Below, in pieces: positions 7,573-20,047 of a DNA stretch of 33,598 nt (position 1 is its first letter; each line of letters opens with the position of its first letter). A program made the position numbers and the translations under genes. Source of the DNA: Lutibacter sp. GTDB lineage: Bacteria; Bacteroidota; Bacteroidia; Flavobacteriales; Flavobacteriaceae. The notes below the pieces were generated by a model. It saw only the letters and a list, made by a program, of their open reading frames with translations, was not told where the DNA came from and made no database searches. The DNA lies in the NCBI GenBank assembly GCA_014859175.1, contig JACUUQ010000008.1:1-33598 (forward strand). The letters run 5' to 3'.

Positions 7573-10398
7573 CTAATTTAATTCTTTTTTTAAGAATTTG
7601 GCCGTATAGCTTTTTTTATGTTTGCTTACTTCTTCCGGCGTTCCAAAACAAAGTAACTGTCCGCCCTTTTTTCCGCCTTCCATACCAATGTCAATCACGT
7701 GGTCGGCAAGTTTTACAACATCTAAATTATGTTCTATAACGAGAATTGTATTTCCTTTATTGGCTAATTTATTTAAAACTTCCATTAAAACGCGAATATC
7801 TTCAAAATGAAGCCCTGTTGTGGGTTCATCTAAAATATAAAAAGTGTTCCCGGTATCTTTTTTCGACAATTCCGAAGCCAGTTTTATGCGTTGCGCTTCT
7901 CCTCCGGAGAGTGTTGTGGATTGCTGTCCAAGTTTTATATAGCTTAAACCCACATCTTGGATTGTTTTCAGTTTTCTGTGGATTTTGGGAATGAGTTCAA
8001 AAAATGCCGTGGCTTCTTCGATGGTCATATTTAGCACATCGGAAATTGATTTTCCTTTGTATCTAATTTCCAATGTTTCTCTGTTGAAGCGTTTTCCCTG
8101 GCACGTTTCGCATTCCACATGAACGTCTGGCAAAAAGTTCATTTCAATCACGCGAACGCCGCCGCCTTCGCAGGTTTCGCAGCGCCCATCTTTAACGTTG
8201 AATGAAAACCGGCCTGGCTTGTAACCTCTTATGGCTGCTTCGCTTGTTTTGGCGAACAAATCCCTTATTTCGCTAAAAACACCGGTATAAGTGGCCGGAT
8301 TTGAGCGTGGTGTTCTGCCAATTGGGGATTGGTCTATCGCAATTACTTTGTCAATATGTTCCAATCCTTCAATAGATTTGAAAGGCATCGGTTTTTTAAC
8401 GCCATTGTAAATGTGTTCGTTTAAAATGGGGTATAAAGTTTCGTTGATTAAAGTCGATTTTCCGCTACCCGAAACACCGGTCACGCAAATTAATTTTCCC
8501 AGTGGAAATTCTACGGTAATATTTTTTAGATTATTGCCGGTAGCGCCTTTTAACACTATTTTATGTCCGTTTCCTGCACGTCGTTTTTTAGGTATTTCAA
8601 TGGATTTTGTACCGTTTAAATAATCGGCCGTCAGTGTATGGTGCTGTTTCAGTTCTTCAAAAGTTCCCTCACTTACAATTTCCCCGCCGTGAATGCCTGC
8701 GCCCGGACCAATATCGAGCACAAAATCGGCATGCTGAATCATTTCTTTATCGTGTTCAACAACAATTACCGAGTTGCCGATATCGCGTAAATTCAACAGC
8801 GAATTTATTAATTTTTGGTTGTCGCGCTGGTGCAGGCCAATGCTAGGTTCATCTAAAATATAAAGCACGCCAACCAATTGCGAGCCAATTTGCGTGGCCA
8901 ACCGAATGCGCTGTGCTTCGCCGCCCGACAGTGATTTTGAGCTTCTGTCGAGGGTTAAATAATCCAAGCCAACGTCCAATAAAAACTGAATTCTCGTTCT
9001 GATTTCTTTCAGTATTTCCGTTGCAATTTTTATTTGTTTTTCGGTTAATTTTTCTTCAATATTGGCAAACCAATTCGCAAGTTCATTGATGTCGAGTTGC
9101 GCCAATTCTGATATATTTTTTTCGTTGACCTTAAAATACAAGGCTTCTTTTTTCAGCCGTTTTCCATCGCAGGTTTCGCAATTGATCTCGTCCATAAATT
9201 CATTTGCCCAACGTTTTATGGAAGTGGAATCGCTTGTATTGTATTGGTTTTCAATAAAATGAATAATTCCTTCAAAATCAATTTCATAAGTTCGGGTAAT
9301 TCCTGCCGTTTTTGAAATAATGTCGAATTTTTCGCTTCCGCCATTTAAAATGATTTCCAGCGCTTCAGCAGGTATTTTTGAAATAGGATCGCTTAATTGA
9401 AAATGATAACGGTCTGCAATTAACTGAAGCTGTTTAAAAATCCAGCTGTTTTTTTGCTCGCCAATGGGTTTTATTCCGCCATTTTTGATGGAAATTTTTG
9501 GATCCGGAATTATTTTTTTGATATTCACTTTATCTATTTTTCCCAATCCGCCGCAAGTTTCGCAGGCGCCTTTTGGAGAATTGAAAGAAAATGAATTTGG
9601 TTCGGGATTTGGGTAGGAAATTCCTGTGGTCGGACACATTAAATCGCTGCTGAAATAACGCGGATTGTTGGTTTCATGTTCCAGAATCATCACCACATTG
9701 TCACCGGAATATAAGGCTGTTGCAATGCTTTCTTCCACTCTTTTTTCCGATGCTTCATTCACTGTTAAGCGGTCAATCACAATTTCAATATCGTGTGTTT
9801 TATAACGGTCAAGGCGCATTCCTTTGGTAATTTCCATCAATTCTCCATCAACCCTCACGCGCACAAAACCTTGTTTTGAAATTTGTTCAAAAAGTTCTCT
9901 GTAATGCCCTTTCCTCGACTTAACAATAGGTGCCAAAATCACTATTTTTTTAGCTTCAAATTCCTTTAAAATAAGTTCTTTTATTTGCGTATCCGCATAA
10001 CTTACCATTTTTTCATTGGTATTGTAAGAATAGGCATCAGCGGCTCTCGCATAAAGCAATCGCAAAAAATCGTAAATTTCTGTGATGGTTCCCACGGTGG
10101 AACGCGGACTTTTATTCGTTGTTTTTTGTTCAATGGAAATAACAGGCGAGAGGCCGTCAATTTTATCAACATCCGGCCGTTCCAAACCTCCTAAAAACTG
10201 TCTGGCATACGCCGAAAAAGTTTCAATATACCTGCGCTGGCCTTCCGCATAAATCGTGTCAAAAGCCAAAGACGATTTTCCGCTGCCGCTTAAACCAGTT
10301 ATTACCACCAATTTTTCTCGGGGAATACGAACGTCAATATTTTTTAAATTGTGGACTCGCGCGCCCAAAACTTCAATATATTCTGTGTGTTTTGTCAT
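7573..10398 (-). CDS. uvrA: Excinuclease ABC subunit A
   Basis: UvrA is the ATPase that scans DNA for bulky lesions and loads UvrB in nucleotide excision repair. With this start the protein is 941 residues, normal for the family. The first ABC domain has Walker A GLSGSGKS at residues 35-42 and the second has GVSGSGKST near 640. Both have the LSGGEAQRI signature, and zinc-finger Cys pairs such as CETCGG and CETCEGGG are present. I use the ATG at 10398. A TTG 21 bases upstream would add seven residues, but it falls inside a TAACTTTG promoter box, so it is unlikely to be translated. The next gene downstream on the same strand is the LOG-family gene, 75 bases away. Confidence 0.97.
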
Positions 10399-10416
10399 TG
10401 GATTTTTGGAAAGTTG

Positions 10417-10424
10417 CAAAGTTA
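10417..10424 (-). promoter_or_regulatory. Candidate -7 promoter box for uvrA
   Basis: Minus-strand TAACTTTG matches TAnnTTTG and sits 19 bases before the uvrA ATG, giving a leader of roughly 10-15 bases. It overlaps the alternative TTG codon at 10419-10417 and so decides against that start. The best -33-like TTG (10441-10439) has only a 14-base spacer. Confidence 0.45.
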
Positions 10425-10502
10425 AAAAAATGTAGCTACAATTTTAGTATGCCAGCTCATCTTTATTTTGAAAATTAGTATATTGCGTCAAAATTATAGA
10501 TT

Positions 10503-10730
10503 GTGGGCTGGATAGTTTCTTTGCGTCATTTTTTTGAAAAACACGGATTTGCGGTTTCCTCGAGATTTGCAGATAAATTGGGGATTGACGTATCCAATGT
10601 GCGCATATTTTTCATCTATATTTCCTTTATTACCTTGGGGTTTTCCTTCGGCATTTATTTAACGCTCGCTTTTTTATTGCGTTTGAAAGATATGGTTTAC
10701 ACCAAACGAAAATCTGTTTTTGATCTATAA
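10503..10730 (+). CDS. PspC-domain small membrane protein
   Basis: A 75-residue protein resembling the short PspC-like proteins of Flavobacteria: an amphipathic N-terminal segment (HFFEKHGFAVSSRFADKLGI), then a hydrophobic membrane segment (about residues 34-58) and a basic tail ending TKRKSVFDL. PspC proteins are inner-membrane components or sensors of envelope-stress responses; the function of this stand-alone form is unknown. No ATG is available, so the start is a GTG at 10503; a TTG at 10521 would also fit. Four bases separate its stop from the potassium-channel ATG, which suggests coupled expression. It is divergent from uvrA, the two sharing a ~100-base intergenic region. Confidence 0.75.
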   Translation: MGWIVSLRHFFEKHGFAVSSRFADKLGIDVSNVRIFFIYISFITLGFSFGIYLTLAFLLRLKDMVYTKRKSVFDL

Positions 10731-17666: not shown

Positions 17667-17740
17667 GCCGATGTAGCTCAGCTGGCTAGAGCAGCTGATT
17701 TGTAATCAGCAGGTCGTGGGTTCGAGTCCCTCTATCGGCT
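17667..17740 (+). tRNA. tRNA-Thr (anticodon TGT)
   Basis: A 74-base cloverleaf. The acceptor GCCGATG pairs with TATCGGC, the D arm has GTAGCTCAGCTGGCTAGAGC, and the anticodon stem CTGAT/ATCAG holds TGT. The T arm has GGTTCGAGTCCC. The discriminator is T. CCA is not encoded (the next bases are CTT). First gene of the tRNA-tuf cluster; its 3' end is copied in the repeats that follow. Confidence 0.97.
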
Positions 17741-17978
17741 CTTTGAAATTTTAAATATGCTTGGGAGTAAATATTTTGATTTAATTTGAGATGTTTATAA
17801 AATGGGACTAGAAGTTTATCCTGAGCGCAGTCGAAGGGAGTCCCTCTATCGGCTCTTTGAAAGAGAAAAACGCTAAGGAAAGTAAATGTTTGATTTTTTA
17901 AATATTTACGAAATATGAAAATAAGTTCATCCTTTGTGCAGTCGAAGAAAGTATCTATCGGCCAGATCTTTGAAAAAT
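17724..17978 (+). repeat. Tandem repeats of the tRNA-Thr 3' end plus a shared repeat module
   Basis: The last 17 bases of tRNA-Thr and the 8 after them (17724-17748) recur exactly at 17838-17862. A decayed third copy lies at about 17949-17977 (it keeps CTATCGGC and ATCTTTGAAA). The unit is about 111-114 bases. Before each copy stands a module whose best version is AAGTTTATCCTGAGCGCAG followed by TCGAAGG (17812-17837); the second is a worn AAGTTCATCCTTTGTGCAG plus TCGAAG (17923-17947). The array fills the whole gap between tRNA-Thr and tRNA-Tyr. The same module occurs downstream of tRNA-Trp. Confidence 0.85.
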
Positions 17979-19572: not shown

Positions 19573-19645
19573 ACGGGTGTAGCTCAGTTGGTAGAGCACT
19601 GGTCTCCAAAACCAGGTGTCGGGAGTTCGAGTCTCTCCACCCGTG
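19573..19645 (+). tRNA. tRNA-Trp (anticodon CCA)
   Basis: A 73-base cloverleaf. The acceptor ACGGGTG pairs with CACCCGT and the anticodon stem CTGGT/ACCAG encloses CTCCAAA (CCA). The T arm is GGGAGTTCGAGTCTCTC. The discriminator is G and the 3' CCA is not encoded. The tuf-trnW-secE order is the common bacterial arrangement. The tRNA's own 3' end begins the repeat array that follows. Confidence 0.97.
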
Positions 19646-19845
19646 CTAATAAATAAAATGTGGTGCGAGAAGTTTATCCTGAGCGCAGTCGAAGGAAGTC
19701 TCTCCACCCGTGCTAATAAACAAAAGTGGTTCGAGAAGTTTATCCTGAGCGTAGTCGAAGGAAGGCTCTCCACTCATGCGAATAATAAAAAGTGGCGCGA
19801 GAAGTTAATCCTGAGCATAGTCTAAGGAAGTTTTTCTACACGATT
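19631..19845 (+). repeat. Tandem 66-67-bp array seeded by the tRNA-Trp 3' end
   Basis: Three full units (19631-19697, 19698-19763, 19764-19829) and a partial fourth (19830-19845). Each begins with the tRNA's 3' T-arm and acceptor strand (TCTCTCCACCCGTGC) and an A-rich spacer. It ends with CGAGAAGTTTATCCTGAGCG and AGTCGAAGGAAG. The first unit is the real tRNA end. The second start is identical over 23 bases, the third has several changes (GCTCTCCACTCATGC) and the fourth is badly decayed (TTTTTCTACACGATT). The array stops 13 bases before the secE ATG, so it forms the secE leader. Confidence 0.92.
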
Positions 19846-19858
19846 AAAATTTTAAAAA

Positions 19859-20047
19859 ATGAATTTAATCAATTACATCAAAGACTCATTTGAAGAGTTA
19901 CGCAATAAGGTGTCTTGGATTTCTTGGGAAGAAGCTCAAAAATCGACTGTTGTTGTTGCAATATTTACCATATTATTCGCAATAGCGGTATTTGCTGTAG
20001 ATAAAGTTTTTCAAGCAGGTTTAACTGAATATTTTAAACTGTTTTAA
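19859..20047 (+). CDS. secE: Preprotein translocase subunit SecE
   Basis: A 62-residue single-span inner-membrane protein, the minimal SecE found in most bacteria. It has a conserved amphipathic stretch (ELRNKVSWISWEEAQKST), then one membrane helix (about residues 30-50, VVVAIFTILFAIAVFAV). SecE clamps SecY in the protein-export channel. It lies between tRNA-Trp and nusG in the canonical order. Its leader is entirely occupied by the tRNA-Trp repeat array, with no visible promoter box, so it is probably transcribed from upstream. nusG starts 15 bases later. Confidence 0.95.
   Translation: MNLINYIKDSFEELRNKVSWISWEEAQKSTVVVAIFTILFAIAVFAVDKVFQAGLTEYFKLF

Follow-up and report, generated by a model that had tools for sequence, protein, structure and literature searches.

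Tandem tRNA-end and hairpin units behind tRNA genes, mostly of Flavobacteriia: a probable family of insertion cassettes with small GIY-YIG nucleases as candidate drivers

The stretch of Lutibacter DNA analysed here (33,598 nucleotides, referred to as the window) carries an intact tRNA-Trp gene that is followed by tandem short units and then by an ORF that we take to be secE. The gene names secE, nusG and tuf are our assumption, made by eye and from gene order rather than from a database call. The features of this part of the window are as follows:

19573-19646, plus strand: intact tRNA-Trp(CCA), carrier of the array (ARAGORN; Rfam tRNA, 69.8 bits)
19632-19698, plus strand: unit 1, 67 bp, made up of the intact tRNA's 3' part (position 60 onwards), a spacer, an arm and the hairpin module
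19666-19698, plus strand: hairpin module 1, CGAGAAG...GGAAG
19699-19764, plus strand: unit 2, 66 bp, with a tRNA end identical to the gene
19732-19764, plus strand: hairpin module 2
19765-19830, plus strand: unit 3, 66 bp, with a decayed tRNA end; related distal units are present in genomes G027 and G030
19798-19830, plus strand: hairpin module 3
19831-19845, plus strand: last, decayed tRNA 3' copy, TTTTTCTACACGATT, followed by a flank resembling an empty site up to secE
19859-20047, plus strand: ORF of 62 aa presumed to be secE (by eye and gene order), with its ATG at 19859

Three units (67, 66 and 66 bp) and the decayed remains of a fourth tRNA end fill the trnW-secE interval (19632-19858), and 13 nt separate the decayed copy from the ATG of the secE-like ORF. 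An earlier reading made from the sequence alone had described three tandem units and a partial fourth at this gene, and this description was correct. Each unit starts at position 60 of the tRNA, directly 3' of TTCGAG (T60 in the T-loop, 19632 for the first unit). Within a unit, the tRNA 3' part from position 60 is followed by an AT-rich spacer, a short arm and CGAGAAGTTTATCCTGAGCGNAGTCGAAGGAAG or a near variant of it, so that each unit ends in a palindromic, REP-like hairpin. A repeat finder reported three 66-nt copies in the tRNA-Trp array with identities of 100, 86 and 71%, and the last copy is decayed; the proposed increase of decay with distance from the tRNA was thus borne out. When the window was searched for TCCTGAGCNNAGTCGAAGGA with up to 3 mismatches, four matches were found, whereas 100 shuffled sequences gave 0.01 on average. 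Three of them lie in the tRNA-Trp array and the fourth, at 17819, behind tRNA-Thr(TGT). No GIY-YIG ORF was found in the 33.6-kb window, and we therefore call the array ORF-less and not a homing endonuclease gene.

The match at 17819 belongs to a second array:

17667-17741, plus strand: tRNA-Thr(TGT), carrier of the second array (ARAGORN; Rfam)
17727-17840, plus strand: unit 1, 114 bp, with its module at 17808-17840
17841-17951, plus strand: unit 2, 111 bp, with a decayed module
17952-17963, plus strand: last, decayed tRNA-Thr 3' copy, after which the empty-site sequence AGATCTTTGAAAAAT comes next

This array (17727-17963) has the same module as the one behind tRNA-Trp, but its duplicated 3' end is that of tRNA-Thr itself.

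When 84,980 species genomes were scanned for the core of the module, CCTGAGCNNAGTCGAAGGAAGYC, at least 118 stretches with at least 131 core copies were obtained. Copies with GAGAAG on their left side (GAGAAG-type) represent the tRNA-type module. Among the matches listed, 52 of 56 GAGAAG-type copies had a tRNA gene on the same strand less than 500 bp upstream, whereas only 2 of the 75 other core copies did (Fisher 4e-29, for copies that are not independent). The four exceptions comprise three copies near the start of the extracted stretch and one at locus L091. The 3' part of the carrier's own tRNA, at least 80% identical, came after the module in 46 of these 52 listed cases; the remaining six have shifted or partial copies. 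The carriers represent 14 isoacceptors (Trp, Thr twice, Lys twice, Leu twice, Asn, Met, Ala, Gln, His, Ile and Arg), and the upstream junction lies at one and the same tRNA position across many different tRNAs.

The same picture was seen among relatives of the window's genome. Within the genus, the tRNA-type module (up to 2 mismatches) was present in 12 of 38 genomes at 25 places, 23 of them behind a tRNA gene; one exception lies at a contig end, and at the other (G029) no tRNA was found by ARAGORN. In 392 genomes of the phylum, the module occurred in nine, all from the window's family, and 25 of its 28 places were behind a tRNA. Of the three exceptions, two are part of a 545-bp tandem that follows tRNA-Asn, and the third is separated from tRNA-Leu, 1.9 kb upstream, by cargo. 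A single module match (G412) was found outside the family but within the order. An ordinary dispersed repeat without a preference for tRNA 3' ends had been named as the finding that would speak against the sequence-only reading; these counts indicate that the module does prefer tRNA 3' ends. The claim that the unit was built from one tRNA needs correction: the module stands behind 14 isoacceptors. Contigs of metagenome-assembled genomes may misassemble repeats; units are also present in named isolates with long contigs, e.g. Christiangramia oceanisediminis and Pedobacter kyungheensis, and in genome G067, which consists of one contig. In C. oceanisediminis (L123) two tRNA-Lys genes are each followed by their own units. 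P. kyungheensis (L138) has a four-unit tRNA-Asn array with terminator-like hairpins in spacers 1-3 and a different one in spacer 4. Identical units stand behind tRNA-Ile at three places of G175:C1 (L217, L222, L226), perhaps in rRNA operons.

The stem of the core is CCT/AGG in 61 of the 68 modules scored, CCC/GGG in five and unpaired in two, and the core alone folds weakly (-2.4 kcal/mol). It is a short imperfect palindrome with several intergenic copies, as is required of REP elements. In the window's genome (G000) it occurs at 15 places, six at tRNAs and nine away from them, the latter mostly with a different right end.

Comparison with empty sites revealed that the units are insertions. Among 18 trnW-secE stretches from congeners, 14 were empty, three had decayed remnants and one had a unit. 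As to the recurrence of the array among relatives, one to three units were found in the trnW-secE interval of nine parsed genomes, G000 included, with remnants in two more; in another genus (G076) this interval is filled by a five-unit array. The flank 3' of an array's last copy equals the flank of the empty site, which places the entry of new DNA at the side of the tRNA. Unit 3 of G000 and the sole unit of G030 both stand directly before the decayed copy TTTTTCTACACGATT, and unit 2 of G010 shares a nested insertion with the sole unit of G001. Proximal units are lineage-specific and distal units are common to several species, and these shared distal markers support growth beside the tRNA. The stepwise outward growth suggested earlier from the gradient of decay is thereby supported. 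The insertions have a defined target and leave the host gene functional, as indicated by the junction after TTCGAG, the intact tRNA and the empty sites. The downstream end of the duplicated stretch is variable; a fixed-length target-site duplication is not supported, given this varying length.

Some members carry genes. At L360 (G067, 8474-10520) a tRNA-Leu gene is followed by a Peptidase_M78 gene (PF06114), a DUF4411/PIN gene (PF14367), the module and a displaced tRNA-Leu 3' end. Two tRNA-Asn arrays (L212 and L361) contain the module as well as small GIY-YIG ORFs, and at L091, where no tRNA was found, a GIY-YIG ORF lies just 5' of the module. Searches with PF01541 gave many more small GIY-YIG ORFs. 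Such an ORF was located between an intact tRNA with its terminator and a displaced copy of that tRNA that bears a palindrome at genes for tRNA-Val, Met, Phe (three units), Met (two), Arg (three), Val (two), Asp and Val, the multiple units being GIY-YIG cassettes in tandem; a further one lies between tRNA-His, likewise intact and with a terminator, and its displaced copy. The palindrome is in the T-loop of the displaced copy at L443 and L445, at L443 directly after TTCGAG. Mirrored cases, with a displaced 5' part before the intact tRNA, were found at L365, L448 and L451. In ORF-bearing members the displaced fragment often starts in the anticodon or D arm, and the palindromes differ from the module. 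Thirteen displaced copies, picked by eye, have perfect palindromes of 6-9 bp. A stem of this length was reached by 0-7 of 200 shuffles for 12 of them and by 30 of 200 for L369, in a control that leaves out stems native to tRNA arms as well as the 5'-side copies and L364. At L440 (G076:C34:6300-10300), eight GIY-YIG ORFs follow each other at a spacing of ~364 bp; palindrome-bearing tRNA-Met-like fragments lie between those ORFs that were read, and the stretch holds no intact tRNA.

To quantify these associations, the neighbourhoods of small GIY-YIG genes were compared with those of Y1_Tnp and ParE loci. The core lies within 300 bp of 10 of 29 small GIY-YIG genes from relatives (the first batch of a set of 53) and 5 of 27 from an order sample, but of none of 21 Y1_Tnp and none of 28 ParE loci (Fisher 3e-5). 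A tRNA lies within 300 bp of 3 of 29 and 4 of 27 of these genes, and of 0 of 49 Y1_Tnp and ParE loci (Fisher 0.014); both comparisons include related rows and tandem copies, which do not count as independent. Six small GIY-YIG genes of the relatives' set have the core on both sides. When all 53 ORFs of this set were compared with the 21 Y1_Tnp loci only, the p value for the core was 0.053. In the relatives' set, a tRNA and an intact core were never found together within 300 bp of one small GIY-YIG gene; L212, L361 and L091 are therefore the loci that link module and GIY-YIG genes directly. The two small GIY-YIG genes of the window's genome (L345, L367) have neither within 300 bp. Two further sets of 20 GIY-YIG stretches each lie outside the 56 genes tested and were picked partly for visible tRNAs or tandem matches; in the second of them, a tRNA is present within the stretch in 13 of 20.

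We also analyzed the short arm that precedes the module. Its base before CGAG pairs with tRNA position 60 in 42 of 57 cases, or in 55 of 57 if G-U pairs are included. The arm can be read as complementary to the 3' strand of the T-stem and in this reading tracks the tRNA type, with a mean Watson-Crick run of 3.44 compared to 1.39 for permuted types. None of 50000 permutations reached the type mean of 3.14 in this anchored test, which was devised after seeing the sequences and covers those 69 out of 81 instances whose tRNA tail matched at 9 or more of 15 positions. As the instances are related by descent, the permutation test overstates their independence. Free local alignment of the arms gave no signal (p 0.11).

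According to equilibrium predictions, pairing of the tRNA-Trp acceptor drops from 0.98 for the tRNA alone to below 0.1 with the array. Over 51 instances, predicted acceptor pairing was 0.34 with arm and module compared to 0.69 when these were shuffled, and 0.24 with arm, module and tRNA copy compared to 0.50 when all were shuffled. It was equally low (0.17, p 0.91) when the tRNA copy was kept and the module shuffled, indicating that the additional tRNA end accounts for much of the effect. Real arms did not outperform shuffled ones (lower in 26 of 55, p 0.79); the sets of 55 and 51 instances were obtained by limiting the distance and the fold of the isolated tRNA. Of 59 first units, 11 have a terminator-like hairpin that separates the tRNA from the module. 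As no general effect on pre-tRNA folding was seen, such an effect was rejected as the explanation of the arm. The earlier suggestion that the array affects pre-tRNA folding is therefore weak: the predicted loss of acceptor pairing agrees with it, but a shuffled module does just as well, the arm adds nothing over shuffled arms, the tRNA is transcribed first and some first units have terminator-like hairpins.

Taken together, we consider it probable that the array arose by tandem amplification of an ORF-less cassette and belongs to a family of tRNA-targeted insertion cassettes, found mostly in Flavobacteriia, with small GIY-YIG nucleases as the putative drivers. On this model, a cassette would split the tRNA gene, supply a new 3' part and push the old one downstream; because it brings its own 3' part, the tRNA would stay intact. 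The displaced fragment bears the palindromic hairpin, which in the window sits exactly in the T-loop, after TTCGAG and before position 60. What separates this fragment from the intact tRNA may be just a spacer or terminator, as in the window, a small GIY-YIG gene or, once, a Peptidase_M78-DUF4411 pair. Later cassettes would join at the intact tRNA, which would leave the newest copy beside the gene and the distal copies to decay. Of these features, the data show the layout, the insertion relative to empty sites, the place of the junction, the recurrence at many tRNAs, the growth on the tRNA-proximal side and the existence of members with cargo. A small GIY-YIG nuclease may cut an arm of the tRNA, and repair may leave the cassette with a duplicated tRNA part. 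We infer that GIY-YIG nucleases are the movers and that the REP-like hairpins may act together with them in insertion. The palindrome in the displaced copy may abolish the cutting site, and units that lack an ORF, like the ones in the window, could be served in trans by GIY-YIG nucleases.

Alternatively, the arrays might have arisen by a local accident of replication: a REP-like hairpin close to a tRNA would stall synthesis, a template switch in the T-arm would duplicate the tRNA end and slippage would amplify it. This would require no dedicated nuclease, and GIY-YIG genes would only use the same fragile sites. The variable downstream end of the duplicated stretch and the varying tandem copy number are in line with this, and an arm that is complementary to the T-stem by tRNA type would be expected from fold-back synthesis. 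However, the arm agrees with the T-stem complement at 12 positions, with a copy of the T-stem 5' strand at 9 and with neither at 16, and the Trp units of the window break the rule, their predicted pairing being shifted. Considering also that the upstream junction is constant across many tRNAs, that genes are carried within the same layout and that the module is a distinct subtype which is scarce away from tRNAs, such an accident seems rather unlikely.

A restored tRNA with a displaced 3' copy, as observed here, is the hallmark of tyrosine-recombinase elements that integrate into tRNA genes and restore their 3' end. The units could thus be remnants of att sites, and by eye truncated tRNA-Leu copies and a module lie beside an integrase-like ORF at L043 (G029:C103). 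Against this stand the palindrome inside the displaced copy, the tandem units of 66 bp, which are too short for a recombinase gene, and the GIY-YIG or M78/DUF4411 genes carried by the ORF-bearing members examined; we regard such an origin as highly improbable. Even less credence is given to a selected RNA element, in which repeated tRNA ends would regulate tRNA-Trp maturation or secE. Occupation of the whole trnW-secE interval, also by the five units of G076, and the altered predicted folding of the tRNA would suit it, but the site is empty or decayed in 17 of 18 congener stretches, distal copies are decayed, units stand behind unrelated tRNAs, and neither the terminator-like hairpins before the module nor the performance of the arm against shuffled arms fits regulation of this kind. 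Least probable of all is mobilisation of the units as a REP element by a RAYT (Y1 transposase), even though the short palindromic core has copies dispersed in the genome and modules occur in 9 of 16 congeners with PF01797 compared to 0 of 9 without (25 genomes; p 0.008, a value that ignores descent). Among 50 Y1_Tnp stretches, some of them overlapping, one (L281) has an intact core variant at a distance of ~0.4 kb and two have weak matches. RAYT as the mover was rejected on account of this near-absence of gene adjacency, the core being within 300 bp at none of the 21 Y1_Tnp loci.

Several known systems resemble the cassettes in part. In the rtT region of E. coli, tandem repeats follow the tRNA gene tyrT, and every repeat includes a duplicate of the tRNA 3' end; the likeness concerns the layout alone, and whereas those units are long and restricted to one locus, the units described here are short hairpin units at 14 isoacceptors in many genomes. 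Phage T4 SegB is reportedly a free-standing GIY-YIG homing endonuclease at a tRNA cluster, comparable to the small GIY-YIG genes sited at tRNA genes. Here, in contrast, the tRNA is restored, the displaced fragment bears a palindrome, units stack in tandem and ORF-less members exist, with a nuclease that is putative. Integrative elements and casposons target tRNA 3' ends and leave a displaced 3' copy as a direct repeat, a feature they share with the cassettes; unlike them, the latter have 66-bp units without an integrase, and the cargo seen is GIY-YIG or M78/DUF4411. REP elements with their RAYT, as well as GTAG- and CGTC-tagged repeats, are short multi-copy palindromes (PMC3733652, PMC6006769), but the tRNA-type module is tied to the ends of tRNAs and its core is unlinked to Y1_Tnp genes. 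At the foot of the module, inspection by eye of 81 tRNA-type instances found no GTAG or CGTC tag, but CGAG or similar. Among the titles listed from the open-access literature, none concerned such tRNA-end/hairpin arrays.

We therefore put forward, tentatively, that this could be a nuclease-palindrome system not described so far. Its GIY-YIG enzymes would target arms common to many tRNAs (TTCGA of the T-loop, the anticodon arm), restore the tRNA and leave a palindrome-immune fragment, and ORF-less units mobilised in trans would grow into ordered stacks at tRNA genes. The same enzymes might also be the missing movers of CTGAGC...TCGAAG hairpins. If true, many partial tRNA copies in Flavobacteriia would be explained, and ordered arrays would be a record of successive insertions beside a tRNA. 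The association of the core with small GIY-YIG genes and tRNA arms offers a testable candidate mechanism for hairpins without a known mover; CGTC repeats, for instance, are reported to be without a dedicated transposase (PMC3733652).

Further hairpins were observed in these genomes. Dispersed cores are embedded in other repeats, some of which read GGGCTATCCGCT...CTGCTATCCCTAACGC (G000:C154, C301 and others; L055, L057-L064). At L093, L106, L108, L150 and others, a core is nested in the loop of another core, and by eye the inserted arm is the complement of the arm of its host. Next to small GIY-YIG genes (L330-L334, L337, L339), cores often have a GTCA foot, resembling CGTC-tagged repeats. At the Y1_Tnp loci L262-L281, another palindromic repeat, similar to GCACGGATTTGCAATCCGCGCTATC, is present in up to 6 of 20 stretches.
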